A stretch of 64,000 nucleotides of DNA. Source: Shimia sp. Alg240-R146. GTDB taxonomy: Bacteria > Pseudomonadota > Alphaproteobacteria > Rhodobacterales > Rhodobacteraceae. Positions 7,436 to 23,533 of the stretch are shown here, one piece after another; within the stretch, counting starts at the first letter, position 1, and each line of letters opens with the position of its first letter. The stretch lies in contig NZ_CAMZOK010000001.1 of the NCBI RefSeq assembly GCF_947331465.1, forward strand, positions 744,001 through 808,000. The letters are read 5' to 3'. Below the pieces are notes generated by a model. It worked only from the letters and a program-made list of their open reading frames with translations, searched no databases and was not told the DNA's origin. The translations under genes were made by a program, and so were the position numbers.

Positions 7436-10400
7436 ATGACCAAAGCCAGCCACGAATTCAAAGGGTACGCCCTGTCAGACCGATACGATCACACCGAGGG
7501 GCGCGTGTTTTTGACGGGTACGCAGGCGCTGGCGCGGATCATGTTTGATCAAGCGCGGCGGGATCGCGACGCGGGGCTGAACACGGCGGGCTTTATTTCG
7601 GGGTATCGTGGGTCTCCGCTGGGTGGGTTGGATCTTGAATTCTGGCGCGAACGGCAGCGGGTGACGGACAACAACATCACCTTTATGCCTGCGGTGAATG
7701 AAGACCTTGGGGCGACCGCCGTTTTGGGCGCGCAGCAAGCGGTGCTGGATCCGGACTGCGACGTCGAGGGCGTGTTTTCCATGTGGTACGGCAAGGGGCC
7801 GGGCGTGGACCGGTCTGGCGACGCGTTAAAACACGGGAATGCTTATGGATCGTCGGCCAAGGGCGGCGTGCTGGTGGTGGCGGGGGACGACCATGGCTGT
7901 GTCAGCTCGTCGATGCCGCACCAGTCGGATGTCGCGTTCATGTCGTGGTTCATGCCGACGCTCAACCCGGCGAGCGTGGATGAGTATCAAGCGTTTGGCG
8001 AATTTGGCATCGCGCTCAGCCGGTTCTCGGGCACCTGGGTTGGTTTTAAGGCCGTGTCGGAGACCGTGGAGTCCGGTCGTTCGGTTGAAATCGTGCCGGA
8101 TCGCACCTTTACCACACCTGAGTTTGAGATGCCGGCAGGCGGGCTGCATGTGCGGCCCAGCGACCTGCCAAGCCCCGAGATCGAAACGCGCATCGGGCAT
8201 AAGTTGCGTGCGGTTGAGGCCTTTGTGGAGGCCAACCCGATTGATCAGCGTGTGTATGATCTTCCTGAGGCCAGCTTTGGGTTTGTGACGACGGGCAAAG
8301 GGCATCTGGACCTGATGGAGGCGCTGCGGCTTTTGGGGCTGGATGAGTCGACCTGTCGGCGGTTGGGTATCGATATTTACAAGGTGGGCATGGTCTGGCC
8401 TTTGGCACGGCGCGATGCGTTGGCCTTTGTGCATGGCAAAACCGAAGTGCTGGTGGTTGAGGAAAAGCGCGGCATCATCGAAAGCCAATTCAAGGAATAC
8501 TTCTACGATTGGCCGGGCGATAAGCCTGAGCGCATGGTCGGCAAGCACCGCGCGGTTGGTGATCCGCTGTTGCCTTGGACGGGCGAGTTGAGCCCGCTGC
8601 AACTGGTGCCAGTGGTGGCTGAGCGATTGGATCGGTTGTTTCCCGACGAAGGTCTGGCGGCAAAGGCCCGCGCGTTGACCGAAGAAAAGCCGCCGGTGTT
8701 GAATGTCACAGGCGCGACGCGCACGCCGTATTTCTGTTCGGGGTGTCCGCACAACACGTCGACCAAAGTGCCTGAAGGTTCCAAGGCGTTGTCGGGCATC
8801 GGCTGTCACGTGATGGCCAGCTGGATGGATCGCAACACTGGTGGCTATGCGCAGATGGGCGGTGAAGGCGTGCCAGTGGCCGTGGCGCAGAAATACAACG
8901 GCAAGAAACATGTGTTCCAGAATTTGGGCGAGGGGACGTGGTACCATTCCGGCTCGCTGGCGATCCGGCAAGCGGTGGCAGCTGAGGCCAACATTACATT
9001 CAAGGTGCTGTTCAACGACGCTGTGGCGATGACCGGCGGACAACCGGTGGACGGGCCGGTGTCGGTGCATGGCATCGCGTGGAATGCGCGGGCCGAAGGC
9101 GTGGCGCGGATTGCCTTGGTTAGCGACGATATCGGCAAATTCAAGCGCGGTGATTTCCCGCCGGACACGTCGTTTCACGACCGAAAAGACATGGACCCCG
9201 TGCAGCGTGAGTTGCGCGAGATCGAAGGCGTGACGTTGCTGGTGTATGAGCAGACCTGTGCGACGGAGAAACGTCGTCGCCGAAAGCGCGGGACGATGGA
9301 AGATCCTGACACATTTGCGTTTATCAATGATCTGGTCTGCGAAGGCTGTGGCGATTGTTCGGTTGAGAGCAACTGTTTGAGCGTGGAGCCGGTGGAAACC
9401 GAGTTTGGGCGCAAGCGGAAGATCAACCTGAGCACCTGCAACAAGGATTTTTCCTGTTTGAACGGGTTCTGCCCAAGCTTTGTGACCGTAACGGGCGCGA
9501 AGCGGCGCAAGAAAGACGGCAGCGATGTGGATTTGCCAGCGTTGCTGGCGGATGTGCCCATGCCGACCGTGCCGTCGTTGGACAAGCCGTTTGATTTGTT
9601 GGTGACGGGAGTGGGCGGCACAGGTGTGGTGACTGTCGGCGCGTTGATCACCATGGCGGCACATTTGGAAGGGTTGGGCTCTTCCGTGCTCGACTTCACG
9701 GGTTTCGCGCAAAAATTCGGCACGGTGTTGAGCTATATCCGCCTGGGCACCAGCCCGGCGGCGGTCAATCAGGTGCGGATTGAACAGGGTGCGGCGGATG
9801 CAGTGATCGGCTGTGACGTGGTGGTGAGCTCGGCCCCAAAGGCGAGCGTGCATTATCGCAAGGGTGCGCAGGTTGTTTTGAACACCGCGGCGATGCCCAC
9901 CGGTGATCTGGTGCTGAACCGTGATGCAGACCTGAAGATCGGTATCCGCGAGCAGGTCATACGCCAAGCGGTTGGTGCCGAAAACGTACGGGCGATGGAT
10001 GCCAACAAACTGGCAGAGCGGCTTATGGGGGACAGTGTTTTTGCCAACGTGATGATGCTGGGCTTTGCCTGGCAACGTGGGTTGGTGCCCGTCAGCGAGA
10101 CCGCTTTGAAGCAGGCGGTTTTGCTGAATGGCGTGGCGGTCGAGAAAAACGCACGGGCGTTTGATCTGGGGCGCGTGTTGGCGCATGACGCAGGGGCGAT
10201 TTCGTTTGATGAGGCGCCGGAAATTGAGACATTGGACGAGGTGATCGCGCGCCGTGTGGCGTTTTTGACCGACTATCAGGATGCCAAATATGCGGCGCGG
10301 TTTGAGGCGCGGATCGCAGAGGTTCGGGGTGTGTTGCCTGAGCCGTTGGTGGAGCAGGCGGCGAAGTCGTTGTTCCGGTTGATGTCGTACAAAGACGAAT

Positions 10401-10843
10401 ACGAGGTGGCGCGGTTGCACATGCAGACCGGGTTTGAAGATCGGCTTCGTGAAGAGTTCGAGGGCGATTTCAAAGTGAACTATCATATGTCCCCGCCTGT
10501 GCTGCCGCTGGGCAAGGATGCGCGTGGACGGCCCAACAAGGTTGCGTTGGGGCCATGGATGCGGCCGGTGCTTGGGCGATTGGCCAAGATGAAAGGTCTG
10601 CGGGGTGGCGTGTTTGATCCGTTCCGCTTTAGCGTGGACCGCAAGCTGGATCGTGCTTTGTTGACGTGGTTTGAGGGCGTGTTGGATTTGGTGGTGGATC
10701 GCTATAGCCCGGCCACGCTAGAGGTTTGCGCGGCGCTGGTGTCGGCGCCGTCTGACATTCGCGGTTACGGTCCGGTGCGCGAGAAAGCAGCGGAAAACGT
10801 GCGCGCGGCGATGCGCGTGCATGAAGATGCGTTGCGTGGGTGA
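7436..10843 (+). CDS. Indolepyruvate ferredoxin oxidoreductase family protein (fused)
   Basis: A 1135-residue enzyme that oxidatively decarboxylates aryl (or branched) 2-oxo acids, made from amino acids by transamination, to acyl-CoA with reduction of ferredoxin. The alpha- and beta-type parts (IorA/IorB) are fused. Visible in order: N-terminal pyruvate-oxidoreductase-like domain (YRGSPLGGLDLEFWRER), a TPP-binding core (around residues 450-600, including GEGTWYHSGSLAIRQA), a Cys-rich Fe-S region (CEGCGDCSVESNC, then CNKDFSCLNGFC), a gamma-type domain (VTGVGGTGVVTVGALI) and a C-terminal domain of the DUF6537 type. An AGGAG precedes the ATG. It is divergent from an Lrp regulator. A long antisense reading frame inside it is only a GC-rich shadow. 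Confidence 0.92.
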   Translation: MTKASHEFKGYALSDRYDHTEGRVFLTGTQALARIMFDQARRDRDAGLNTAGFISGYRGSPLGGLDLEFWRERQRVTDNNITFMPAVNEDLGATAVLGAQQAVLDPDCDVEGVFSMWYGKGPGVDRSGDALKHGNAYGSSAKGGVLVVAGDDHGCVSSSMPHQSDVAFMSWFMPTLNPASVDEYQAFGEFGIALSRFSGTWVGFKAVSETVESGRSVEIVPDRTFTTPEFEMPAGGLHVRPSDLPSPEIETRIGHKLRAVEAFVEANPIDQRVYDLPEASFGFVTTGKGHLDLMEALRLLGLDESTCRRLGIDIYKVGMVWPLARRDALAFVHGKTEVLVVEEKRGIIESQFKEYFYDWPGDKPERMVGKHRAVGDPLLPWTGELSPLQLVPVVAERLDRLFPDEGLAAKARALTEEKPPVLNVTGATRTPYFCSGCPHNTSTKVPEGSKALSGIGCHVMASWMDRNTGGYAQMGGEGVPVAVAQKYNGKKHVFQNLGEGTWYHSGSLAIRQAVAAEANITFKVLFNDAVAMTGGQPVDGPVSVHGIAWNARAEGVARIALVSDDIGKFKRGDFPPDTSFHDRKDMDPVQRELREIEGVTLLVYEQTCATEKRRRRKRGTMEDPDTFAFINDLVCEGCGDCSVESNCLSVEPVETEFGRKRKINLSTCNKDFSCLNGFCPSFVTVTGAKRRKKDGSDVDLPALLADVPMPTVPSLDKPFDLLVTGVGGTGVVTVGALITMAAHLEGLGSSVLDFTGFAQKFGTVLSYIRLGTSPAAVNQVRIEQGAADAVIGCDVVVSSAPKASVHYRKGAQVVLNTAAMPTGDLVLNRDADLKIGIREQVIRQAVGAENVRAMDANKLAERLMGDSVFANVMMLGFAWQRGLVPVSETALKQAVLLNGVAVEKNARAFDLGRVLAHDAGAISFDEAPEIETLDEVIARRVAFLTDYQDAKYAARFEARIAEVRGVLPEPLVEQAAKSLFRLMSYKDEYEVARLHMQTGFEDRLREEFEGDFKVNYHMSPPVLPLGKDARGRPNKVALGPWMRPVLGRLAKMKGLRGGVFDPFRFSVDRKLDRALLTWFEGVLDLVVDRYSPATLEVCAALVSAPSDIRGYGPVREKAAENVRAAMRVHEDALRG

Positions 10844-11911: not shown

Positions 11912-12679
11912 TTATTCCTGCTGAAACAACACATTGCTTATCTTCGCCGCCGCGCTTAGGAGGACGTCCTTGCCCTCGATGACCTCGGCTAACGACATTC
12001 TCTGCGTTGGCCCGTGGCATGCCAAGCCGGCGACGAAACGGCCACGCGGATCGACTACGGGAACAGCAATGGCAACCATTCCCTCCAGAAATTCTTCCTG
12101 ATCCAGCGAATACCCCTGTCCTCGTATTTTGTTCAGTTCGTCAAGAAGCGCCTGAGGGTCACTATGAGTGTGCCGCGTCATCGACCGAAGGTAGATCGAG
12201 GCGACAAGGGTCTCGCGTTTCTTCCGTGTCAGGCTAGCCAGGAAGACCTTACCACTTGCGGTGCAATGGAACGGGACGCTCGTGCCGATGGGGAGTTGAA
12301 TCCGAAACGGCCAATCGGTTTCAACCCGGTCCAGATAGTTCATCCCCTCGTTTCCCGGCACGGCGTAGTTGACCGTTTCCCCAATGCTATCGGCGACTTC
12401 TTTCAGAATTTGGTGTCGGGCCACATGATCGCGTGAATTGTGCAACAAGCCCGACCCGAGATCACGCAGCCGTCGCCCAACCTGGTACTTCTTGGAGTTG
12501 CCCGGGCGGGTCAGAAAGCCGTTCTCTTCCAGCGTTACGCACAGCCGGTGAACCGTCTGTTTCGGCAGGCCAAGCTGCTCGTTGATCTGAGTGGCGGTCA
12601 TCGGCTGATCGCTTTTGCCCAGGACCTCAAGGATCAAGAGCGTGCGCAGGTTTGTCGGGATGCGGTCAGAATCCGGCAA
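11912..12679 (-). CDS. IclR family transcriptional regulator
   Basis: A 255-residue regulator with an N-terminal winged helix-turn-helix (MTATQINEQLGLPKQTVHRL, about residues 23-42) and the C-terminal IclR effector domain (residues 80-250, including FHCTASGKVFLASL and the VPVVDPRGRFVAGLAC core). It is divergent from the GMC oxidoreductase that starts the catabolic cluster, so it is the likely local regulator. The 104-base gap carries a palindrome suited to a dimeric repressor. The effector is unknown; the pathway substrate or an intermediate is likely. Confidence 0.92.
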   Translation of the reverse strand: MPDSDRIPTNLRTLLILEVLGKSDQPMTATQINEQLGLPKQTVHRLCVTLEENGFLTRPGNSKKYQVGRRLRDLGSGLLHNSRDHVARHQILKEVADSIGETVNYAVPGNEGMNYLDRVETDWPFRIQLPIGTSVPFHCTASGKVFLASLTRKKRETLVASIYLRSMTRHTHSDPQALLDELNKIRGQGYSLDQEEFLEGMVAIAVPVVDPRGRFVAGLACHGPTQRMSLAEVIEGKDVLLSAAAKISNVLFQQE

Positions 12680-12741
12680 AAGAACCCCCAGTAAAAAAGA
12701 TGGTGCATTTCTCGCGAATCATAATACCGTCACTTATCGCC

Positions 12742-12766
12742 AAAAACGAGACAAAAAGTCTCATTT
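12742..12766. promoter_or_regulatory. Palindrome upstream of the GMC gene, candidate IclR operator
   Basis: GAGAC-AAAAA-GTCTC (12748-12762) is a perfect 5+5 inverted repeat, extended by AAAA on the left and TTTT on the right. It lies about 20 bases before the GMC start and some 70 bases from the IclR start. IclR proteins typically bind palindromes of about this size. Function inferred. Confidence 0.4.
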
Positions 12767-12783
12767 TTTGATATGGAGGGGGA

Positions 12784-14385
12784 ATGAAGTTCGACTTTGT
12801 CGTTGTGGGGGCAGGATCAGCCGGTTGCGCACTGGCAAATCGCCTGTCTGCAGATGGGCGGTATTCGGTCGCGCTGGTCGAAGCCGGTCCCGCCGACCGC
12901 AACCCCTGGATCCACGTTCCGGTCGGATACTTCCGGACCATGGGCAATCCCAAGTCGGATTGGATGTATGTCACTGAAAAGGACAAAGGCATCGCGGGCC
13001 GGGCCATTTCCTGGCCCCGGGGCCGTGTTCTTGGCGGGTCAAGCTCGATCAACGGGCTGCTTTATGTGCGGGGCCAACCACAAGACTATGATCACTGGGC
13101 ACAGTTGGGCTGCATCGGCTGGTCCTGGGACAGCGTTTTGCCGCTCTTCAAACGGTCGGAGACCTGGCATGGCGAACATTCCAACGATGTACGCGGCGCC
13201 GACGGGCCGCTTTCCGTGCAGGATTCGCGCCTGACCCGTGAGGTTGTGGATACCTGGCTCGATGCCGCCGAAGCTGCGGGTTACAAACGCACCAAGGATT
13301 ACAACGGTGAAGATCAGGAAGGCGTTGGGTATTTCCAACTGACCATGAAAGGCGGTCGCCGGTGTTCTTCTGCAGTCGCCTATCTGAATCCGATCAAGAA
13401 CCGCAAAAACCTGACGATCATCACCGACGCGCAGACCGAAAAGGTTCTGATCGAAGACAGTCGCGCCACGGGCATTCGCGTGAAGCTGCATGGTGCGATG
13501 GAAACCATTGAGGCGGGCAAAGAGGTGATCCTCAGCGCTGGGGCCATCGGCTCGCCGCAAATCCTGATGCTGTCGGGCATTGGCGATCCGGACGAATTGT
13601 CCCCGCACGGGATCGACGTGCACTCGGCTCTGAGCGGGGTGGGCAAGAACCTGCAGGACCACTTGCAGGCGCGTCCAGTTTACAAAACCAACCTCAGCAC
13701 GATCAACACCGAGGCCAACAACATCTTCAAACAGGGCATGATGGCGATGCAATATGCCCTGACCCAGCGCGGCCCGATGACCATGGCCGCCAGCCTTGGC
13801 ACCGGGTTCCTGAAAACCGAAGACCGGCTTGAAACGCCAGATATCCAATTTCACATCCAGCCCTGGAGCGCCGACAAGCCTGCTGATGGGCCGCACAAGT
13901 TTTCAGCCTTTACCGCGTCGGTGCTGCAGTTGCGCCCGGAAAGCGCGGGGCACCTGTCGCTGCGTTCAGCCCGGATGGAGGATCACCCCGAGATCCATCC
14001 TAATTACCTGGCGTCCGATCTTGACTGCAGAACAATCGTCAAAGGCATTCAGATCGCACGGACAATTTCGCAGACCGATCCGCTCAGGTCTCACATCACC
14101 GAGGAACATGCGCCGGGGGCCGGCGTGGCGTTTGATGACGAAGCGGCCACGCTGGATTGGGCGCGCCGGACCTCGGTAACGATTTATCACCCCACCGGCA
14201 CCTGCAAGATGGGGATCGACGGCAAGGCCGTTGTCGACCCGCGCCTGCGGGTTCGGGGTATCGACGGGCTGCGCGTGGCCGATGCGTCGATCATGCCGCA
14301 GATCGTCAGCGGAAACACCAATGCCCCGTGCATCATGATCGGCGAAAAGGCCGCCGATCTTGTGTTGGAGGACGCAAGATCATGA
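12784..14385 (+). CDS. GMC family FAD-dependent oxidoreductase (choline dehydrogenase-like)
   Basis: Flavoprotein alcohol dehydrogenase of the glucose-methanol-choline family, 533 residues, normal length. The N-terminal FAD-binding motif (VVGAGSAGCALANRL, residues 6-20), the GMC signature (RGRVLGGSSSINGLLYVRG), a second signature (GAIGSPQILMLSGIG) and the C-terminal catalytic His/Asn region (YHPTGTCKMG, then GNTNAPCIMIGEKAAD) are all present. GGAGGGGG lies just before the ATG. As first gene of the TRAP/HpsN-like cluster it probably oxidises an alcohol group of the imported compound. The substrate is not predictable from sequence; similarity to choline dehydrogenase is family-level only. Confidence 0.9.
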   Translation: MKFDFVVVGAGSAGCALANRLSADGRYSVALVEAGPADRNPWIHVPVGYFRTMGNPKSDWMYVTEKDKGIAGRAISWPRGRVLGGSSSINGLLYVRGQPQDYDHWAQLGCIGWSWDSVLPLFKRSETWHGEHSNDVRGADGPLSVQDSRLTREVVDTWLDAAEAAGYKRTKDYNGEDQEGVGYFQLTMKGGRRCSSAVAYLNPIKNRKNLTIITDAQTEKVLIEDSRATGIRVKLHGAMETIEAGKEVILSAGAIGSPQILMLSGIGDPDELSPHGIDVHSALSGVGKNLQDHLQARPVYKTNLSTINTEANNIFKQGMMAMQYALTQRGPMTMAASLGTGFLKTEDRLETPDIQFHIQPWSADKPADGPHKFSAFTASVLQLRPESAGHLSLRSARMEDHPEIHPNYLASDLDCRTIVKGIQIARTISQTDPLRSHITEEHAPGAGVAFDDEAATLDWARRTSVTIYHPTGTCKMGIDGKAVVDPRLRVRGIDGLRVADASIMPQIVSGNTNAPCIMIGEKAADLVLEDARS

Positions 14386-14403
14386 TGTTTGGGACAAATC
14401 ACT

Positions 14404-14444
14404 TGCCGGTTACCGGCATGGACATCGGGTCGATTTTTCGACCC
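14404..14444. promoter_or_regulatory. Two palindromes between the GMC and TRAP-P genes
   Basis: TGCCGGT-T-ACCGGCA (14404-14418) is a perfect 15-base palindrome. GGGTCGA-TTTT-TCGACCC (14427-14444) is a perfect hairpin, followed by CAAAAA. They lie in the 138-base gap before the TRAP binding protein. They may be an operator plus an mRNA processing or stabilising structure; no T-run supports termination. Confidence 0.35.
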
Positions 14445-14523
14445 CAAAAACTCGGGGGCAATGCCTTCAGCCCCACGAAACACAACAAGAAGACTGAGGG
14501 CTTTTTCCTAGGGAGGAATATCA

Positions 14524-15618
14524 ATGTTTAAAGTCAAGTACTTAGCAGCTGGCGCCACGGCGCTCGCCCTGATGGCATCCACAGCGATGGCCGAGAAGGT
14601 TCTGCGCATCCAGTCGGTGCTGCCGAGCACAGCGGACGAAGTCACCATGCTGAACGAATTCGGCAAGGACGTGGCGGCGCTGACCGGCGGGTCGCTGACC
14701 ATCGAAGTGTTGCCTGCGGGTGCCGTTGTCGGTCCGCGTGACATCATGGATGCGGTTGACGCGGGACTGGTGGAGGGCGGCTTCGCCTGGACCCACTATT
14801 GGGGGGGCAAGCACGTTGCCGCCAACCTCTTTGGTGCGCCGGTTGCGGGCGCCGGTGTCGGCCTCGACAACATCGCGTTCCTGAGCTGGTTCCAATATGG
14901 CGGCGGCAAAGAGTTGTATGACCGCCTGTGGGACGAAATGGGCGTGAACGTAAAAGGTTTCATGTTGCAGCCGGTGGGCCCCGAGGCGTTGGGCTGGTTC
15001 CCGAAACCGATCGAGTCGATGGATGACTTCCGCCAGATGCGGTTCCGTGCACCTCCTGGTATGGTTGGCGCAGCCTACGCGGACATCGGCGTTCCTGCGG
15101 TTGCCATGGGCGGTGGGGACATCCTTCCCGCGCTGGAAAAAGGCACGATTGATGCGGCCGAATGGTGCTGCCCCAAGCCTGATAGCGTGTTCGGCTTCCA
15201 GAAGGTGCTGAAGCACTACTATCTGCAAGGTTTGCACCAGGTTGTTGTGAACGCGGACATGTATGTGAACCGCGACTTCTATGACGGGCTGTCGGACCTA
15301 GAGAAAAAAGCTCTCGAAGTGGCCGCGAACGCGTCTTTGTCCAAGTCGCTCTCCTACCGTATCTTTGAAAACGGTAAGGCGCTGAAGGATCTGACCGACA
15401 ATCACGGTGTTATCCTTGAGGACACACCGGCGGATTACTTCACCGAGTACATGGCCGCAGCCAACAACGCGCTGCAAGCCGCAGCAGACGAGAACGCGTT
15501 CTTTGCCGAAGTCTGGCAGTCGCAAAAGGACTTCGCCGACACTGTCGTTCCGTTCTGGGCCGGTGCGCAAGCGTCGAATGCGGGTCTGGGTAAGGCGCAT
15601 GCCGACACGCTGAAATAA
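14524..15618 (+). CDS. TRAP transporter substrate-binding protein, DctP family
   Basis: Periplasmic solute receptor of a tripartite ATP-independent transporter. A signal peptide of about 23 residues ends in STAMA|EKVLRIQSV. The mature part shows the DctP fold: GFMLQPVGPEALGWFPKPI and the FRQMRFRAPPGMVG segment, which contains the conserved Arg that normally pairs with a carboxylate or similar anion. Total 364 residues. A strong AGGGAGGA lies upstream of the ATG. The fused permease follows after a 130-base gap containing two hairpins. The pathway context suggests an anionic substrate; its identity is inferred at best. Confidence 0.92.
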   Translation: MFKVKYLAAGATALALMASTAMAEKVLRIQSVLPSTADEVTMLNEFGKDVAALTGGSLTIEVLPAGAVVGPRDIMDAVDAGLVEGGFAWTHYWGGKHVAANLFGAPVAGAGVGLDNIAFLSWFQYGGGKELYDRLWDEMGVNVKGFMLQPVGPEALGWFPKPIESMDDFRQMRFRAPPGMVGAAYADIGVPAVAMGGGDILPALEKGTIDAAEWCCPKPDSVFGFQKVLKHYYLQGLHQVVVNADMYVNRDFYDGLSDLEKKALEVAANASLSKSLSYRIFENGKALKDLTDNHGVILEDTPADYFTEYMAAANNALQAAADENAFFAEVWQSQKDFADTVVPFWAGAQASNAGLGKAHADTLK

Positions 15619-15632
15619 CCCAAGCTCATTTT

Positions 15633-15654
15633 GCGGGGGCCATTTGGCCCCCGC
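15633..15654 (+). terminator. Hairpin after the TRAP binding-protein gene
   Basis: GCGGGGGCC-ATTT-GGCCCCCGC is a perfect 9-base-pair stem followed by a weak T-rich tract (AGTTCATTTT). It probably acts as a leaky terminator or 3' stabiliser, giving more binding protein than permease. A second stem, CCCCC-GAAA-GGGGG (15713-15726), with a GNRA-type loop, sits just before the permease ribosome binding site. Confidence 0.55.
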
Positions 15655-15749
15655 AGTTCATTTTCGACAAGGACCTTGGGTTTCGCGAGACCGGTCTTTT
15701 TCAAAAATGAACCCCCCGAAAGGGGGCGGACAACCAGGGAGGAATGGGG

Positions 15750-18221
15750 ATGGCCGCAGATGAGGTGAACCCTGATGAGCTCGAAATTGCAGACGAACTG
15801 ATCGCGGAACGACGTGCCGAAGCCCCCGGTGAAACACCCGAAGACATGACTCCGTGGCAGCGCCCGATCACGGCGGCCATCGACGTGCTGAACTATCGCG
15901 CGGGGCAGATCATTTCCCTGCTGTTGGTGCCATTGATCGCGGTTGTGGTGTTCGAGGTGCTCTCGCGCAATTCCTTCTCGATCCTGCAAAATGCGGGGTT
16001 CGAAGACTTGGCGCGGTCGCTTGGTCTTGGTCCAACGCTTTGGGTCTATGACACCAGCCGGATGCTTGCCGGGATGCTGTTCATGGCGGCGGCGGGCTAT
16101 GGGTTGATGCGCGGGGTGCATATCCGCGCCGACTTCCTGTATCGCAACTGGTCGGACAAGACCCAGGCAACTGTGGATGCCTCGCTCTACCTTGTCTTCT
16201 TCATGCCCTCGATGATCTTTTTCACTGTGGTTTCGAGTAAGTTCTGGTGGCTGGCCTATTCCACCGGCGAAACCATGCAGATCGACAGCGCCTGGGGCCC
16301 ATTGCTCTGGCCCGCGCGCACGGCGATGCCGATCGGCGGCTTCCTGTTGATGTTGCAGGGCATCCCCGAGATTTTCCGCGCCTTTCACAAGATGGGCAAG
16401 GCGCGCGAACGCTGGTTCGTGCGGGCCTTGCCCATCTACCTGATCGCGCTGGCGTGGCTTGTGCTGGCGGTGTTCCAGCCTGATTGGGTGCCCGGAGGCG
16501 AGTGGTTCACCGATCTGATGAAGGCCCGCCCCTCCCTGTCCAAGCCGACCATTGGCCTGATCATGCTGGGCGCGATGCTCTTCGTGATTTTCATCGGCTT
16601 CCCGATTTCCTTCACGCTGATCTTCCTTGGATTCGTTTTCGGCATCTGGGGTGCGAACTTCAAGCTGACAACGCTTCTGATGACGCTCAACACCAACTCG
16701 ACCATGCTGAACGATCAACTGATGGCGGTGCCGCTCTTTGTCCTGATGGGCATCGTGATGGAAGCGGCGGGGTTGATGGAACGGCTCTTTACCTCGATCC
16801 AGATGATCATGGCCCGCGTGCGCGGGGCGCTTTTCATCGCTGTGTTGATCGTGTCCACGATATTTGCCGCCGCCACCGGGATCGTAGGGGCCTCCGTGAC
16901 CCTTCTGGGGATTATGGCCGGAGCCACGATGAGCCGGTCGGGCTATAACGTCCAACTCTCCGCCGGAACGATCACCGCCGGGGGCACGCTGGGCATTCTG
17001 ATCCCACCCTCGATCATGCTGATCGTGATGGGGCCGGTGTTGGAAGTCTCGACGCTGGACCTGTTCCGCGGCGCGTTCATTCCGGGTGCACTTCTGGCGT
17101 CCCTTTACCTGATTTACACCCTCGGGCGGTGCTGGCTGAACCCTGATCTTGGCCCCATCCTGTCCGAGGAGGATCAGCCTGACACGTCGAATTTCTATGG
17201 CGCCGAAGTCGCGCTGATTTGCCTGGGCATCCTGACCCTATGCCGCGTCTTTGGCCTCAGTCTGGGCGGCACGTTCAGTTCGATCCCGTTTGGCGGGTTG
17301 ATTGTCATGGCCCTCGCGATGGCCCTGGCCTATGCGGCCTATCGGCGGCTTAACGTGTTGCGGATCGTTCTACCGATTGCCGTCCTGTTTCACCTCTACA
17401 TGATCGTTGCCAATACGGGCGCCGACGGCAGCTGGTCGATCTGGTCGATTGTCTTTGCCGCATTTATCGTCTTGTTGGCCTTCCTTGGGCGGCCAATCTA
17501 CGGCTCTGATGCAGAGGATGGGTTTTATTTCGCACAGCTTTGGGATGAGTTCTTTGCCGGGCTGATGCCGCCGACGATCCTGATCTCCTTTGCCCTTGGT
17601 TCGATCCTGCTGGGTCTTGCGACACCGGCAGAAGCCGCAGCCATGGGCGCCTTCGGTGCAATCCTTCTGTCACTGGCTTATCGCAAGTTCACCCTGCCCA
17701 GCTTCTTTGACAGCCTGATCAAAGCGCTTGAAATCACGGTTCTGATCATGTTCCTGGTCGCCGCCTCGAATTTCTTTGGTGCGCAGTTCAGCGCCCTTGG
17801 AACGCCGCGGATGATGACCGAGATTCTTCTGGGCCTCGATATGTCGCCTTACCTGGTCCTGATCCTGGTGATGTCGCTGATCTTCCTCTTGGGCTGGCCG
17901 CTGGAATGGGTGCCAATCGTGCTGATCGTTGTGCCGATCCTGTTGCCTACTGTCGAGAAACTCGATGTCTTCGGGCTGGAACGCTACGACCTCATGGTCT
18001 GGTTCGGCATCCTTGTGGCGGTGAACCTGCAAACCGCGTGGCTATCCCCACCCGTGGCCCTGTCGGCCTACTTCCTCAAGGGCGTGGTGCCCAATTGGGA
18101 TCTCAAAGACATCTACCTTGGCATGATGCAATTCATGCTGGTCCAGCTTCTTGGCCTGATCCTTCTGTTCATCTTCCCGCAGCTGGTGCTCTGGTTACCA
18201 GCCGCCATGTCAGGAAACTAA
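15750..18221 (+). CDS. TRAP transporter fused permease (DctQ-DctM)
   Basis: Inner-membrane permease in which the small DctQ subunit (about residues 40-215, four membrane segments) and the large DctM subunit (from about residue 250) are fused. I chose the ATG at 15750 because GGGAGG lies 7 bases upstream; the ATG at 15744 is almost in contact with it. A cytoplasmic acidic N-terminus of about 40 residues precedes the first helix. The DctM part is roughly 150 residues longer than the usual 430: an extra hydrophobic block (about residues 485-600) lies before LATPAEAAAMGAFGAIL. DctM landmarks include PLFVLMGIVMEAAGLMERL and GTLGILIPPSIMLIVMG. It is followed after 3 bases by the DUF475 gene. Confidence 0.9.
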   Translation: MAADEVNPDELEIADELIAERRAEAPGETPEDMTPWQRPITAAIDVLNYRAGQIISLLLVPLIAVVVFEVLSRNSFSILQNAGFEDLARSLGLGPTLWVYDTSRMLAGMLFMAAAGYGLMRGVHIRADFLYRNWSDKTQATVDASLYLVFFMPSMIFFTVVSSKFWWLAYSTGETMQIDSAWGPLLWPARTAMPIGGFLLMLQGIPEIFRAFHKMGKARERWFVRALPIYLIALAWLVLAVFQPDWVPGGEWFTDLMKARPSLSKPTIGLIMLGAMLFVIFIGFPISFTLIFLGFVFGIWGANFKLTTLLMTLNTNSTMLNDQLMAVPLFVLMGIVMEAAGLMERLFTSIQMIMARVRGALFIAVLIVSTIFAAATGIVGASVTLLGIMAGATMSRSGYNVQLSAGTITAGGTLGILIPPSIMLIVMGPVLEVSTLDLFRGAFIPGALLASLYLIYTLGRCWLNPDLGPILSEEDQPDTSNFYGAEVALICLGILTLCRVFGLSLGGTFSSIPFGGLIVMALAMALAYAAYRRLNVLRIVLPIAVLFHLYMIVANTGADGSWSIWSIVFAAFIVLLAFLGRPIYGSDAEDGFYFAQLWDEFFAGLMPPTILISFALGSILLGLATPAEAAAMGAFGAILLSLAYRKFTLPSFFDSLIKALEITVLIMFLVAASNFFGAQFSALGTPRMMTEILLGLDMSPYLVLILVMSLIFLLGWPLEWVPIVLIVVPILLPTVEKLDVFGLERYDLMVWFGILVAVNLQTAWLSPPVALSAYFLKGVVPNWDLKDIYLGMMQFMLVQLLGLILLFIFPQLVLWLPAAMSGN

Positions 18222-18224
18222 ATC

Positions 18225-19271
18225 ATGAGTGTTGAACGCAGTTCTCTATCCTATCTGAAATGGCCCCTACTCACGACGGTTATCGGCCTTGGTTTAAGCG
18301 GCTGGCTGGGTTGGGCGACCGAGGGCACGTGGTCCGGGGTTGTCTCGTTCCTGATCGTCGGCACGGTGCTGGCCGCACTTGAAATTGCGCTGTCTTTCGA
18401 CAATGCCATCGTCAATGCCAACAAGCTTGAGGATATGACCCCGATCTGGCGGCAACGGTTCCTGACCTGGGGCATCTTGATCGCCGTATTCGGGATGCGG
18501 ATCGTGTTTCCGCTGGTGATTGTTGCGATTTTTGCATGGATCAACCCCTTCGCTGCCATGCATCTGGCCTTATCGGACCCGGACGAATACTCGCGCATCA
18601 TTGGACACGCACATGGGCCAATATCGGCCTTTGGCGGCACTTTCCTGATGATGGTGGCACTGAAGTTCTTCATCGACGAAGACAAGTCCATCGACTGGAT
18701 CACCATTCTGGAAAAGCGCCTGCGCCTGTGGGGCTCCATTCGCGGGTTCGAGATCGCCTTTGTCCTTGTGATCGTACTGTTGATTTCCCAATCTCTGGCC
18801 GATCACGAGTTGGCCCCTTTCCTGACCTCGGCTGTGATGGGGCTTTTGGTCTTTACCATGGTGGATGGTCTTGGCACCTATCTCGACAACGTCGCCGGAT
18901 CGACGACCGCGATTGGTGCCAAGGGCGGCTTGGGTGCGTTCCTCTATCTTGAAGTTCTGGACGCCAGTTTCTCGTTTGATGGCGTGATTGGTGCCTTTGC
19001 CCTGACCACCAACATCCTGCTGATTGCCATCGGCCTTGGCATTGGTGCGATGTATGTGCGTTCGATGACGATCATGCTGGTCGAACGCGGCACTTTGGCC
19101 GAGTTCCGTTACTTGGAGCATGGTGCGTTCTATTCGATCTTTGCGCTCTCGATCGTAATGTTCCTGCAATCGATAGTGCATGTGCACGAGCTGATCACCG
19201 GCGGCATCGGCATGGCCCTCATCGGATTGGCCTTCTACGCCTCGATCCGCCACAACAAACGCGAAGCCTGA
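18225..19271 (+). CDS. DUF475 (TerC-like) membrane protein
   Basis: A 348-residue integral membrane protein that I place in the DUF475 family, related to TerC. It has about eight to nine hydrophobic segments. The conserved charged motif LEIALSFDNAIVNANKL (about residues 52-68) and a second membrane-embedded acidic motif, LEVLDASFSFDGVIGAFAL (about residues 243-261), are typical of TerC-like proteins and may bind cations. It starts three bases after the TRAP permease stop and 27 bases before the HpsN-like gene, so it belongs to the operon. Its role is unknown; an exporter or metal-homeostasis function for the pathway is a guess. Confidence 0.85.
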   Translation: MSVERSSLSYLKWPLLTTVIGLGLSGWLGWATEGTWSGVVSFLIVGTVLAALEIALSFDNAIVNANKLEDMTPIWRQRFLTWGILIAVFGMRIVFPLVIVAIFAWINPFAAMHLALSDPDEYSRIIGHAHGPISAFGGTFLMMVALKFFIDEDKSIDWITILEKRLRLWGSIRGFEIAFVLVIVLLISQSLADHELAPFLTSAVMGLLVFTMVDGLGTYLDNVAGSTTAIGAKGGLGAFLYLEVLDASFSFDGVIGAFALTTNILLIAIGLGIGAMYVRSMTIMLVERGTLAEFRYLEHGAFYSIFALSIVMFLQSIVHVHELITGGIGMALIGLAFYASIRHNKREA

Positions 19272-19298
19272 GCATTCGCACATAGACAGGACTTTCCC

Positions 19299-20606
19299 AT
19301 GACCCGGATCTATCTGAAAAAGGCTGCGCTCACATCACGCTCGGACGCCGGCGAAACGGCCAAGACGGTAGCAACAATACTGGCCGATATAGAAAACCGC
19401 GGCGAGGCGGCCGCCTTGGAATATGCCGCGAAATTCGACCAATATGATGGCAATGTTCAGCTGACCCCGGACGAGATCGAGGCTGCAAGCGCCCTGGTTC
19501 CGCAAAAGCTGAAAGACGATATCCTGTTCGCCCATGACAACGTCCGCCGCTTTGCCGAAGTGCAAAAAGCAACCGTCGCCGATGTGGAATACGAGATCAA
19601 TCCGGGGCTGATTGCAGGGCAAAAGGCCATTCCGGTCTCTGCTGCCGGGTGCTACGTGCCTGCCGGTCGCTATCGCCATATCGCCAGCGCCATCATGACC
19701 GTGACAACGGCGAGGGTCGCGGGCTGCGAACATATCACGGTCTGTTCCGCGCCGCAGCCGGGTGCTGGCCTCTATCCTGCCATTGTCTATGCGGCGCACG
19801 CCAGCGGCGCCAACAAGATCATGGCGATTGGTGGTGTGCAGGGGATTGCCTCGATGGCGTTCGGTCTGTTTGGTCAGCCCAAGGCCAATATCATCGTCGG
19901 GCCGGGCAATCAGTTCGTGGCCGAGGCCAAGCGCACACTTTATGGCCGGGTTGGAATCGATATGATCGCAGGCCCCACCGACAGTTTGATCCTAGCGGAC
20001 AAAGGCGCCGATCCGCATATCGTGGCGACCGATTTGGTCAGCCAGGCCGAGCATGGCTACAACTCGCCGGTCTGGCTGGTGACCGATCACCAACCCTTGG
20101 CCAAAGACGTGCTGGCCCGGGTCCCCGACCTGATTGCCGATCTGCCCGAATTGAACCGTGAAAACGCCGAAGCCGCCTGGCGCGACTATGCCGAGGTGAT
20201 TGTCTGTTCGGATCGCGAGGAAATGGCGGCAACATCGGACGAATATGCCCCCGAGCACCTGACGGTTCAGGCCGATGAGCTTGATTGGTGGCTGGACCGT
20301 CTGAAATGCTATGGCTCGCTGTTCCTGGGGGAAGAAACCACCGTCTCCTATGGCGACAAGGCGGCGGGCACGAACCACGTGCTGCCAACGTCCGGCGCGG
20401 CCAGCTATACGGGCGGGTTGAGCGTGCACAAATACATGAAGATCGTCACTTGGCAGCGCGCCACCCGCGAAGGGTCCAAGCAGGTGGCCGAAGCCACGGC
20501 AAGGATTTCCCGACTGGAAGGGATGGAAGGGCACGCGCGCGCCGCAGATGTGCGGTTGGCGAAGTATTTCCCCAATGAAATTTTTGATTTGACGGCCAAT
20601 GGATGA
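19299..20606 (+). CDS. hpsN: HpsN-like dehydrogenase of the histidinol dehydrogenase family
   Basis: Zinc- and NAD-dependent four-electron dehydrogenase of the HisD fold, 435 residues. Metal ligands equivalent to HisD Gln/His/Asp/His appear at Q249, H252 (SQAEHGYNSP), D353 (SYGDKAAGTNH) and H412 (GMEGHARAADVR); the catalytic Glu/His pair is E319-H320 (APEHL). The GCYVPAGRYRHIASAIMTV segment and the TRAP/alcohol-dehydrogenase context resemble HpsN, which oxidises (R)-2,3-dihydroxypropane-1-sulfonate to (R)-sulfolactate in roseobacters and Cupriavidus. No other his gene is nearby. The HpsN call is from memory of the family; a HisD homologue acting on another polyol is the alternative. Confidence 0.72.
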   Translation: MTRIYLKKAALTSRSDAGETAKTVATILADIENRGEAAALEYAAKFDQYDGNVQLTPDEIEAASALVPQKLKDDILFAHDNVRRFAEVQKATVADVEYEINPGLIAGQKAIPVSAAGCYVPAGRYRHIASAIMTVTTARVAGCEHITVCSAPQPGAGLYPAIVYAAHASGANKIMAIGGVQGIASMAFGLFGQPKANIIVGPGNQFVAEAKRTLYGRVGIDMIAGPTDSLILADKGADPHIVATDLVSQAEHGYNSPVWLVTDHQPLAKDVLARVPDLIADLPELNRENAEAAWRDYAEVIVCSDREEMAATSDEYAPEHLTVQADELDWWLDRLKCYGSLFLGEETTVSYGDKAAGTNHVLPTSGAASYTGGLSVHKYMKIVTWQRATREGSKQVAEATARISRLEGMEGHARAADVRLAKYFPNEIFDLTANG

Positions 20607-21360
20607 TCCACGCGCTCTTTTCGATCTAAGCGGCCGTGTTGCCGTTGTGACCGGCGCCAGTTCCGGGCTGGGCCGCCGCGCCGCGCAGGTCCTGTGCGCA
20701 GCCGATGCGCGGGTTGTTGCGATTGCAAGACGAGAAGACCAATTGCGAAGTCTGACGACGGAAATCGGTGAGCGCTGCGCTTTTGTTGCTGCCGATATCA
20801 CCGACCGAGACGCTCTGCCGGTCTTGGCTCAGGACCTCGCCCAACCCTTCGGCGCGCCTGACATCATTGTCCATGCGGCAGGCATCAACACACGACAACC
20901 CGCTGATGATGTAACCCGCGAGGGATGGGACCAGACGCTTGAACTCAACCTCTCGGCCCCGTTTTTCCTGACGCAATCCCTTGTCTCTGCTATGAAGCAA
21001 AAGGGCTGGGGCAGGATCGTGAATTTCGCTTCACTGCAAAATACACGGGCGTTTTCCGGCGGGATCGCCTATGGCGCCAGCAAGGCGGCGGTCGGTCAGA
21101 TGACCCGGGCAATGGCCGAAGCCTGGTCGGGACTTGGCATCACCGCAAATGCGATTGGCCCCGGTTTCTTTCCAACGGAACTGACCAAAGCGGTGTTTGA
21201 CGACGCGGACAGGGCCGCGCGCAACGCCGCGCAAACCTGCATGGGCCGAAACGGCAGGCTTGAAGATATCGACGGACCGCTGCTGTTCTTGTGCTCAAAC
21301 GCTTCAAGTTATGTGACAGGACAGGTTCTTATGGTTGATGGGGGGTTCACCGCGAAATGA
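20599..21360 (+). CDS. SDR family NAD(P)-dependent oxidoreductase
   Basis: Short-chain dehydrogenase of 253 residues, a classical length. Cofactor motif TGASSGLG (residues 19-26), NAG-like AAGINTRQP, and catalytic YGASK (Tyr-x3-Lys, about residues 155-159) with an upstream Ser are visible. Its ATG lies inside the end of the preceding dehydrogenase gene (8-base overlap), and its stop overlaps the next gene by ATGA, so the three dehydrogenases are translationally coupled. In known dihydroxypropanesulfonate clusters, extra alcohol dehydrogenases interconvert stereoisomers before HpsN acts; this gene may play such a part (inference). Confidence 0.9.
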   Translation: MDDPRALFDLSGRVAVVTGASSGLGRRAAQVLCAADARVVAIARREDQLRSLTTEIGERCAFVAADITDRDALPVLAQDLAQPFGAPDIIVHAAGINTRQPADDVTREGWDQTLELNLSAPFFLTQSLVSAMKQKGWGRIVNFASLQNTRAFSGGIAYGASKAAVGQMTRAMAEAWSGLGITANAIGPGFFPTELTKAVFDDADRAARNAAQTCMGRNGRLEDIDGPLLFLCSNASSYVTGQVLMVDGGFTAK

Positions 21361-22337
21361 AGGCGCTGGTTTATGAAGGTGTTAAAACGCTCGCTATCCA
21401 CGATGTCGCAATGCCTGTTGCCGCCGCGGGTGAGCATTTAGTGCGTATCCACGGGGTCGGCATCTGCGGTTCGGACATGCACGCCTATCTCGGGCATGAC
21501 GATCGACGACCTGCGCCGCTGATCCTCGGGCACGAAGCCGCCGGGATTGTCGAAGACGGCCCGTGGAAAGGGCGACGTGTCACGATCAACCCGCTGGTGT
21601 CCTGCGGAACCTGCTCCTATTGCCGCGCCGGGCGGGAGAACCTCTGTCCCGACCGACAGATCATCTCGATGCCCCCGCGCGAGGGGGCGTTTGCGCAGTA
21701 TGTCAGTATGCCGAGCGAAAACCTGATCACAGTCCCTGATGATTTTCCCTTGGACAAGGCCGCCCTGTGTGAGCCGCTTGCCGTCAGCTGGCATGCAGTA
21801 AGGCTGGCCATCGACGGCGTGCATCCCGATATGGAGCGCCGCGCCTTGGTCATCGGCGGCGGGGCCATCGGACTGGCCGCCGCGCTGGCACTCAGGGCAA
21901 TGGGCTGGGACGACGTTGAAATCACCGAACCCAATGCCCTGCGCCGTCGGTTTCTTGAGGATCGATGCGGGTTGCGGGCGGTTGAGACGCCGCAAAAAAT
22001 TGCCTCCATCGTCGTCGACGCGGTCGGCTTTGCCGCGACAAGGGCTGTTGCGTCGGAATGGGTCGCGCCCGGCGGGGTCATTGCCCATGTCGGGCTGGGT
22101 GACAATGCGGAAGGCTTGGACGTTCGCCGCATGACCCTGCAGGAAGTCGCCTTTGTCGGCAGCTACACGTATACCGCGCAAGATTTCCACGACACGGCGC
22201 AGGCCATGTTCGATGGTCGCCTTGGCCAACTAGACTGGTTTGAAACAAGATCGTTGGAAGACGGCGCGACCGCGTTTCGTGACATTAGCGCGGGCAACGC
22301 GGCAGCCCCCAAGATCATTCTCGACCCATGGGCATAA
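21357..22337 (+). CDS. Zinc-dependent alcohol dehydrogenase (MDR family)
   Basis: Medium-chain dehydrogenase of 326 residues. The catalytic zinc site is visible as GICGSDMHAYLG (Cys38) and LGHEAAGIV (His-Glu). The structural zinc lobe has four cysteines in CGTCSYCRAGRENLC. The nucleotide-binding motif VIGGGAIGLAAALAL lies near residue 165. This resembles sorbitol/threonine-type polyol dehydrogenases, though slightly short. It overlaps the SDR gene by ATGA. Together with the SDR it probably forms the epimerising or oxidising pair of the pathway; the substrate is unproven. Confidence 0.9.
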   Translation: MKALVYEGVKTLAIHDVAMPVAAAGEHLVRIHGVGICGSDMHAYLGHDDRRPAPLILGHEAAGIVEDGPWKGRRVTINPLVSCGTCSYCRAGRENLCPDRQIISMPPREGAFAQYVSMPSENLITVPDDFPLDKAALCEPLAVSWHAVRLAIDGVHPDMERRALVIGGGAIGLAAALALRAMGWDDVEITEPNALRRRFLEDRCGLRAVETPQKIASIVVDAVGFAATRAVASEWVAPGGVIAHVGLGDNAEGLDVRRMTLQEVAFVGSYTYTAQDFHDTAQAMFDGRLGQLDWFETRSLEDGATAFRDISAGNAAAPKIILDPWA

Positions 22338-22359
22338 AGCCAACACGAAAGGATCCAAC

Positions 22360-22770
22360 ATGTACAAAAACATTCTTGTCCCCCTGGCGTTGAACCATGG
22401 GTTTTCCCACAAGTCACTGGCCCTGGCGGAAGGGCTACGTTCAGACGGCGGGCAGATCACCGCGCTCCATGTCTACGACATCCCACAAGGCACGGCGAGC
22501 ACCTACATGGGAGAGGATCGGATCGACGAAGGACTGAAGGCCGCCGAAAAATTGCTGAAGGAAAAGGTGCAGGGGATGGACGTTGTAAAAGCCGATATCG
22601 TGCGCGGACATGCCTATCGAACGATTGTCGAATACGCTGAGAAGGGCGACTTTGATTGCATCGTGATCGGCTCCCATCAACCCACTGTCAGCGATTTTCT
22701 GATCGGTTCGACTGCGGCACGGGTGGTCCGCCATGCCAAGTGCACGGTTCATGTGCATCGTGGTGCGTAG
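22360..22770 (+). CDS. Universal stress protein, UspA family
   Basis: A 136-residue cytoplasmic protein with the Usp fold: MYKNILVPLAL at the start and the C-terminal ATP-loop-like region GSHQPTVSDFLIGSTAARVVRHAKCTV split across two strands (G-x2-G-type loop less clear than usual). I chose the ATG at 22360 because AAAGGA lies 7 bases upstream; a longer in-frame reading back to 22240 runs inside the preceding gene. It is 22 bases after the alcohol dehydrogenase and is probably the last gene of the operon. Its role here is unknown. Confidence 0.88.
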   Translation: MYKNILVPLALNHGFSHKSLALAEGLRSDGGQITALHVYDIPQGTASTYMGEDRIDEGLKAAEKLLKEKVQGMDVVKADIVRGHAYRTIVEYAEKGDFDCIVIGSHQPTVSDFLIGSTAARVVRHAKCTVHVHRGA

Positions 22771-23456
22771 GATGAAAAATGTCTGGAATGGATTTAGATA
22801 GCGGCGATATGAGGGTCGCGTTGACGTAATTTCGGATCCGTAATTCACTCGGCCGACGATGCAAGGCGCATTGCGAAACGTCGGTGGCCATGGATGGTGT
22901 GCGACTACATTGATGGCGGAGCTGGGAGCGAAGTTGGCAGGCGTCCTCGCAAGCAGCGCAATGGTATCACGATGCCGTTCCGGATCGGGCCGCGCCAATT
23001 TGTTGACTTTGCGCTCCACCCCCGCTGATCTCGACGAGAATCGAGATGAACCAGAAAATCGCGCATCGTGGCTGACGTGATTTTCGCGAGATCAAATTCC
23101 TTCGCATAAGATTCGAAACCACGGTCTTTTTTGACTGCTGTTTTGGATCAGCCGTGCGACGGAACGAATCTGCAAATTCAACAGCGGCTTCAATTTCCTC
23201 TAAGCGACTGGTTTATTTGATAGATCGTCGAACATGCGTCTTCGAAGCGGTATCCCAGAGCCGAAGATGTCAGAACGGACTTTTGCCTGTTTGGTAAACT
23301 GCGAGACCAGATCGGAAGTGCTTCAGCCTAGAAACTTGATTCTGTGTCGACCTCGCCACCTGTTCCCGCCGTGTGTGTGCGTAACAGTGTGGACTTGGAT
23401 TGAACACATCAATTCACGCAGATGAATTTGCTAAGAGATTGATGTGAAGGGGGAAA
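22771..23456. other. Gap without a recognisable gene
   Basis: About 690 bases between the UspA gene and the tRNA. Two short open frames (22859-23080 and 23234-23425) have no ribosome binding site or recognisable sequence. The stretch is less GC-rich near its right end. I see no clear repeats or terminator. It may be decayed coding sequence at the edge of the catabolic island. Confidence 0.5.
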
Positions 23457-23533
23457 TGGTGGCGGTACAGGGACTTGAACCCCGGACACGCGGATTATGA
23501 TTCCGCTGCTCTAACCAACTGAGCTATACCGCC
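23457..23533 (-). tRNA. tRNA-Met (anticodon CAT), elongator type
   Basis: The minus strand folds into a full cloverleaf: acceptor GGCGGTA / TACCGCC (7 perfect pairs), D arm with AGCTCAGTTGGTTAGAGC, anticodon stem GCGGA/TCCGC with loop ATCATAA (anticodon CAT), T arm CCGGGGTTCAAGTCCC, discriminator A and encoded CCA. The G1-C72 pair excludes initiator tRNA. A CAT anticodon could also be tRNA-Ile2 (lysidine-modified), but the body looks like elongator Met. Confidence 0.93.

Follow-up and report, generated by a model that had tools for sequence, protein, structure and literature searches.

Identity and layout of the island

The locus analysed here raises the question of which compound is handled by a catabolic island of Shimia sp. 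Alg240-R146, in which genes for a GMC flavoprotein and a tripartite ATP-independent periplasmic (TRAP) transporter precede genes for three unrelated dehydrogenases. The window, meaning the whole stretch of 64,000 nucleotides that was analysed, corresponds to positions 744001-808000 of contig C1 in a genome of 4.19 Mb on six contigs (labelled C1, C2, C3 and so on). By homology the island is an operon for 2,3-dihydroxypropane-1-sulfonate (DHPS). It is judged rather probable that it represents a roseobacter DHPS operon of the hpsNOPQ type with an exchanged front, consisting of an alternative importer and an IseJ-like GMC, and perhaps forms one island for both C2 and C3 hydroxysulfonates. The features, with the evidence for each in brackets, are as follows.

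11912-12679, minus strand: IclR-family regulator, divergent from the operon (Pfam)
12784-14385, plus strand: GMC flavoprotein, IseJ-like (Pfam, identity to the GMCs of isethionate-type clusters, tree)
14524-15618, plus strand: TRAP receptor of the DctP family (Pfam, PDB matches)
15744-18221, plus strand: TRAP permease, DctQ and DctM fused in a single frame of 825 aa (Pfam)
18225-19271, plus strand: DUF475 membrane protein of the TerC superfamily (Pfam)
19299-20606, plus strand: HpsN, assigned as R-DHPS dehydrogenase of the HisD fold, Histidinol_dh (Pfam, PDB, tree)
20599-21360, plus strand: HpsO, assigned as R-DHPS dehydrogenase, a short-chain dehydrogenase/reductase (SDR) (PDB match; S145, Q147, Y158 and K162 present)
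21357-22337, plus strand: HpsP, assigned as S-DHPS dehydrogenase, a zinc medium-chain dehydrogenase/reductase of the zinc alcohol dehydrogenase type (PDB match; H59, E60 and E139 present)
22360-22770, plus strand: HpsQ-like universal stress protein, Usp (Pfam; same position as SPO0597 hpsQ)
22843-23022, plus strand: remnant of a decayed slcD gene, covering residues 7-38 and 164-194 in the same frame before a stop

An earlier note on this DNA had described an IclR regulator divergent from genes for a GMC protein, TRAP receptor, fused permease, DUF475, HisD-fold protein, SDR, zinc alcohol dehydrogenase and Usp. All these open reading frames were recovered at the coordinates above, and Pfam confirmed each family. 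Its description of a tightly packed operon holds from the permease to hpsQ, where the intergenic gaps are 3, 27, -8, -4 and 22 bp, but not for the front, where the GMC and receptor genes are separated by 138 bp and the receptor and permease genes by 125 bp. The order of the front genes is not due to chance: at 9 of 80 named hpsN loci, the top-scoring 80 of 581, GMC, receptor and permease likewise come before hpsN. ATG 22360 is the most likely start codon of the Usp gene (136 aa, 22 bp past hpsP), in place of TTG 22240.

Dehydrogenases of the island

The HisD-fold protein matched the solved (R)-DHPS dehydrogenase 8WWE with 717 bits, against 247.5 bits at most for solved histidinol dehydrogenases. 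It is 78.4% identical to HpsN of Ruegeria pomeroyi, whose locus (L038) encodes a product with 98.5% identity to 8WWE. HpsN of Cupriavidus pinatubonensis JMP134 (8v35) is likewise a HisD-fold DHPS 3-dehydrogenase, but with 529 bits and 55.5% identity it is further from the window protein than the roseobacter enzymes are. The nearest named relatives among the best 80 of 581 hpsN matches belong to Shimia and Aliiroseovarius, at 90-93% identity. In a tree of 23 rows, the window HpsN clustered with six relatives linked to the same front module (100/100), inside a group of 16 rows (96/96) to which the R. pomeroyi enzyme also belongs; the C. pinatubonensis enzyme and the genome's own paralogues fell outside this group, on long branches.

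The genome has four HisD-fold genes, and the other three are 36.8% (C3, with the top Pfam score), 45.9% (C2) and 60.5% (C1) identical to HpsN. The comparison of HisD and HpsN that the earlier note had proposed thus placed the window copy with R. pomeroyi HpsN and apart from the most HisD-like copy. The identity of 19299-20606 as a true HisD was ruled out by this grouping and by the presence of four HisD-fold copies. The 60% paralogue (L137, 9417-10694; C1, about 1760425) lies beside an oxidoreductase with DAO and GCV_T domains and an acyl-CoA dehydrogenase. The 46% paralogue (L138, C2:58500-78000) is found among SnoaL-like proteins, an SDR, an ABC transporter and an Amidohydro_2 protein.

The SDR matched the solved HpsO 8wwf with 373 bits and the zinc alcohol dehydrogenase matched the solved HpsP 8wwd with 447 bits. 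The residues reported for HpsN, HpsO and HpsP in PMC11131964 as catalytic or as reading chirality were kept at 10 of 10 positions, namely H320, D353 and H360 of HpsN, S145, Q147, Y158 and K162 of HpsO and H59, E60 and E139 of HpsP. The three HpsN residues occur also in the genome's own HisD and in both other paralogues and do not discriminate; the assignment of HpsN therefore depends on identity and on the tree. The HisD-fold, SDR and zinc-dependent proteins are accordingly identified by homology as HpsN, HpsO and HpsP, the established DHPS dehydrogenases of roseobacters. The top PDB match of the SDR was 6le3, deposited as gluconate 5-dehydrogenase (382 bits). This entry has Q aligned with Q147 and is as close to the window HpsO as the solved HpsO is; its name may be wrong.

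Back end of the operon and possible fate of sulfolactate

In R. pomeroyi the cluster comprises SPO0590 hpsR (LacI), SPO0591-0593 hpsKLM, SPO0594-0596 hpsN, hpsO and hpsP, SPO0597 hpsQ (UspA) and SPO0598 slcD (PMC4334477). The window has the same tightly packed N-O-P-Q order with the place of slcD next to it. It differs in that its slcD is decayed whereas that of R. pomeroyi is intact, and in that the LacI regulator and HpsKLM are replaced by IclR, GMC, another TRAP transporter and DUF475. No hpsR or hpsK match was found within the window, no hpsK in the whole genome at E 1e-100, and hpsM matched the permease only locally. The two matches of the slcD relic have E values of 5e-10 and 7e-12. The earlier note had stated that no sulfolactate-processing gene lies in the window; a search aimed at slcD, comD, comE, suyB and comC found no intact copy within the 64 kb, but the relic of slcD is present. 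A match to slcD (62-67%) was present in 4 of the 9 receptor-bearing hpsN loci, and loci with the front of the window continue into comDE-slcD (L170, L177), suyB-comC (L180) or suyB (L176, L182). The suggestion of a DHPS pathway is supported by the orthology of HpsN, HpsO and HpsP, by hpsQ and by the slcD relic.

As the local slcD is decayed, sulfolactate would be processed elsewhere. Three slcD homologues of 33-41% identity occur in other parts of the genome and may act as functional stand-ins; the scanned one on C3 is a relative of lactate dehydrogenases that falls below the cut-offs, and R. pomeroyi slcD scores likewise. One ComC homologue (41%) was found on C3, and CuyA gave no match over the cut-off in the genome. 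SuyB was rejected, as the two PF04295 matches are a frame of 504 aa and a C2 gene that is only 33% like the suyB of the relatives and lies among sugar-type genes. The comDE genes on C3 passed both NCBIfam cut-offs and adjoin a 2-hydroxyacid dehydrogenase gene. The genes around them (L166, C3:77000-96900) encode an aldehyde dehydrogenase of the SSADH type, an aldose epimerase, an aldolase of the LacD type, a PfkB kinase and a protein distantly related to the sulfoquinovose isomerase SftI (241 of 700 bits). This set resembles a sulfosugar cluster with sulfoacetaldehyde as its end product, and it could also process the sulfolactate of the island. A peptide-type ABC transporter was also noted there, from a receptor match and open reading frames only.

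The TRAP transporter

Mutants of R. pomeroyi grown on DHPS and isethionate have confirmed hpsKLM and iseKLM (PMC10130141). R. pomeroyi HpsK matched 24gc, a chain named DHPS TRAP transporter, with 746 bits. The window receptor gave 42 matches to solved chains at E 1e-3, the nearest being 2hzk (named SmoM, sorbitol/mannitol), 4pet and 7ug8 (ketoacid-binding) at 111-118 bits, with the lactate-binding TTHA0766 lower. The receptor had no match to two IseK proteins, and IseM matched the permease only locally (IseU was not sought). Given that no receptor match of the HpsK or IseK type and only local permease matches were obtained, the window TRAP is classed by sequence as a third type, neither HpsKLM nor IseKLM. 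We take 2hzk to be TakP, and the receptor is therefore called TakP-like. It shares the subfamily of 2hzk, 4pet and 7ug8 by sequence; those receptors are named for ketoacids or for sorbitol/mannitol and were not met here in a sulfonate setting.

Such names, together with the higher score of the SDR for 6le3 than for HpsO, would fit a pathway whose substrate is a hydroxycarboxylate or anionic polyol not described so far. This is considered highly improbable, as three unrelated dehydrogenases match characterised DHPS enzymes and keep the reported residues. Q147, which is said to separate HpsO from gluconate dehydrogenase (PMC11131964), is present, and sister operons continue into sulfolactate genes. 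The alternative of the earlier note, a new route for a sulfonated or anionic polyol, found no positive support beyond the open identity of the ligand of the TRAP receptor.

The GMC flavoprotein and the IclR regulator

The earlier note rightly saw the GMC protein, but the "added GMC oxidase" resembles the IseJ-type dehydrogenase of isethionate clusters. It is 59-61% identical to the GMCs of two kinds of isethionate-type cluster. The first kind is linked to xsc, as in Paracoccus seriniphilus (IclR, TRAP, GMC, xsc) and Paracoccus sp. MA (IclR, MFS, GMC, xsc, exporter, pta, sulfite oxidase). The second is found on plasmids of Ruegeria and Leisingera as IclR, TRAP large subunit, small subunit, receptor and GMC, which is the iseR-M-L-K-J order of R. 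pomeroyi; these plasmid clusters also have no adjoining xsc. The window IclR is 48% identical to the IclR of the plasmid clusters. The island therefore resembles the ise clusters in having a divergent or neighbouring IclR, a TRAP and a closely related GMC; it differs from them, including the Paracoccus clusters with TRAP or MFS, in that its TRAP is not of the IseKLM kind, xsc does not adjoin and hps genes follow.

More distant GMCs were found in a Caballeronia cluster (xsc-pta-IclR-GMC-MFS; 55% identity) and, at 48-51%, in five genes from four records with other contexts, of which the one from Paracoccus yeei lies several genes away from an ABC receptor for aliphatic sulfonates. Burkholderia arboris (L210) has no annotation and stood outside this context comparison. 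In the GMC tree (64 rows) the window protein belongs to a clade of 48 rows (support 99), which meets a group of nine rows (82), among them the Paracoccus, Ruegeria and Leisingera genes, and the row L150 in a trichotomy; the Caballeronia gene groups with the outgroup. The module GMCs of two genomes where no hpsN was found (G059 and G014; L148, L149) fall in the nine-row group. A search of 120 genomes revealed exactly one GMC match (E 1e-180) in each of 13 module genomes and at least one in 13 other genomes, so nothing points to a further IseJ-type gene alongside the module GMC. A function as choline dehydrogenase was rejected, since the protein reached 583 of the 605 bits required by NCBIfam for PRK02106 and 477 of the 732 required for betA. 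The best solved match, the chloramphenicol-inactivating oxidoreductase 8b7s (415 bits), says little on the substrate. The description of the GMC as IseJ-like is well supported by these comparisons, and its predicted function is that of an isethionate dehydrogenase.

In another conceivable role, the GMC has turned into a DHPS dehydrogenase linked to the respiratory chain and joins HpsN, HpsO and HpsP as a fourth gateway enzyme, with isethionate not involved. The majority of module GMCs fall into a separate clade, one genome (G177) has IclR and GMC directly ahead of hpsNOP with no TRAP between them, and one locus (L047) keeps GMC and TerC beside hpsKLM with the module TRAP reduced. We regard this role as rather unlikely, because the closest relatives outside the clade adjoin xsc or sit in ise-type orders, and because 19 of 46 module loci have no close hps gene and no hpsN was found at all in G014, G059 and G171 (search at E 1e-180).

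Distribution of the front module

The module was located at 46 other loci (L150, L152 and L155 are examples), of which 44 have a GMC gene nearby and 45 an IclR gene. A YjbE-type TerC was present in 22, DUF475 in 19, both in none and neither in five, two of these on short contigs. The replacement of one TerC-superfamily member by the other suggests that they share an accessory role. The hpsN gene lies within 6 kb at 23 of the loci and any hps gene at 27.

The association of the receptor with hpsN and hpsK was analysed in 394 genomes of the family from 393 genera, with the top 3-5 candidates per genome scored. The cut-offs were E 1e-100 for hpsK (73 genomes) and for the receptor (47 genomes, one partial) and E 1e-180 for hpsN (142 genomes). 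Of the latter, 140 were tallied; the lowest listed had 615 bits (65%), under the threshold of at least 71% identity, so the threshold set of 122 genomes is unaffected. Among these 122, hpsK alone was found in 62, the receptor alone in 33, both in 4 (G001, G082, G180 and G372) and neither in 23 (Fisher p 1e-10). Over all genomes, hpsN was present in 37 of 47 with the receptor and in 85 of the 347 that lack it (p 7e-13). Ten genomes have the receptor but no hpsN at this threshold; in three of them hpsN is cut by a contig end beside the module (G056, G160, G335), and three others have 65% copies (G054, G314, G364).

At the best 80 of 581 hpsN loci, hpsK occurred in 48, the receptor in 9, neither in 23 and both in none; hpsR was found in 65 of the 80 and in none of the nine receptor loci. 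Among the 23, L055 is a short contig on which DUF475 and the permease end precede hpsN. Independence cannot be assumed between the 9 of 80 and the 46, because some module loci are shared contigs counted in both sets (L171/L008, L175/L037, L176/L035, L180/L075).

The influence of kinship was controlled by an exclusion test on hpsN trees. The first tree had 126 rows (the 122 genomes, G064, G185, G314 and the partial G335); the later trees were made without G064, G185 and G314. On strongly supported branches, hpsK was opposite in 7.0 of 11, 5.6 of 8 and 4.6 of 8 independent pairs and the same in 0.1, 0.3 and 0.3. When the unsupported branches of the best tree were included as well, 14.3 of 22 pairs were opposite and 1.0 the same (median p 0.001). 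An hpsN tree is not a species tree and the power on supported branches is low, but the direction of the exclusion between receptor and hpsK was stable. Two relics point to the same exchange as the exclusion: G326 has a stretch of 66 hpsM residues between hpsR and hpsN and carries the module elsewhere in its genome, and L047 keeps hpsK and hpsM while its module TRAP is matched only at the start of the receptor and the end of the permease. At 14324-17088 of L047, GMC and TerC are intact and the TRAP has collapsed to receptor residues 9-90 and permease residues 770-825.

Weighing of the explanations

It is also conceivable that the front module serves isethionate only and is merely placed beside hps genes, with DHPS entering by another transporter. 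The likeness of IclR and GMC to ise-cluster proteins, the module loci apart from hps genes and the four genomes that retain hpsK are in accordance with this. The association of the receptor with hpsN, the exclusion of hpsK and the reciprocal relics would be left unexplained, and this option is considered quite unlikely.

Under the preferred explanation of a DHPS operon with an exchanged front, a TRAP of another subfamily, with a TakP-like receptor and a fused QM permease, would import DHPS and probably isethionate too. HpsN would convert R-DHPS to sulfolactate, while HpsO and HpsP would convert R-DHPS and S-DHPS, respectively, to sulfolactaldehyde, as published for the orthologues. The GMC, a close relative of the IseJ group, would oxidise a hydroxysulfonate, most likely isethionate to sulfoacetaldehyde. 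The 2-hydroxyacid dehydrogenase and sulfopyruvate decarboxylase (comDE) of C3 could turn sulfolactate into sulfoacetaldehyde, the meeting point of both branches. The IclR probably regulates the whole set, and DUF475 may have some accessory role.

Several points weigh against this explanation. For both TRAP and GMC the substrate is predicted from relatives, and the nearest solved relatives of the receptor carry ketoacid, lactate and sorbitol/mannitol names; its 42 matches include neither 24gc, the receptor for DHPS, nor 8t9t, the one for isethionate. The trichotomy puts the module GMC clade next to the IseJ group but not within it. A search of the window for xsc, pta and sulfite oxidase genes found none. 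The module stands apart from hps genes at 19 of 46 loci, and 23 of 122 hpsN genomes carry neither TRAP. On well-supported branches the kinship control kept its direction but was weaker, with median p of 0.016, 0.063 and 0.125.

The island looks like a variant of the known DHPS pathway rather than a new pathway, with an alternative importer that is well supported but unproven. A wider proposal, considered less likely than not, is that the distant TRAP imports hydroxysulfonates in general and has taken the place of HpsKLM repeatedly among marine Rhodobacterales, with a respiratory-chain-linked GMC acting on both DHPS and isethionate and one IclR regulon for C2 and C3 sulfonates. Searches of an open-licence PMC library brought up no description of the front module or of a combined ise/hps operon; older work on isethionate gene clusters may hold related orders. 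Phytoplankton and bacteria exchange DHPS and isethionate as currencies of carbon and sulfur, and the compounds that bacteria consume have been inferred from the expression of transporters such as hpsKLM and iseKLM (PMC9870897, PMC10130141). If 33 of the 122 hpsN genomes in this sample do take up DHPS through another TRAP, surveys based on hpsK undercount DHPS users. The GMC raises the question of whether one island serves two sulfonates.

Neighbouring genes

Upstream of the island, window positions 7436-10843 encode a protein of 1135 aa with POR and DUF6537 domains (Pfam), presumably a fusion of the indolepyruvate-oxidoreductase type. Beyond the slcD remnant, a tRNA-Met lies on the minus strand at 23457-23533.

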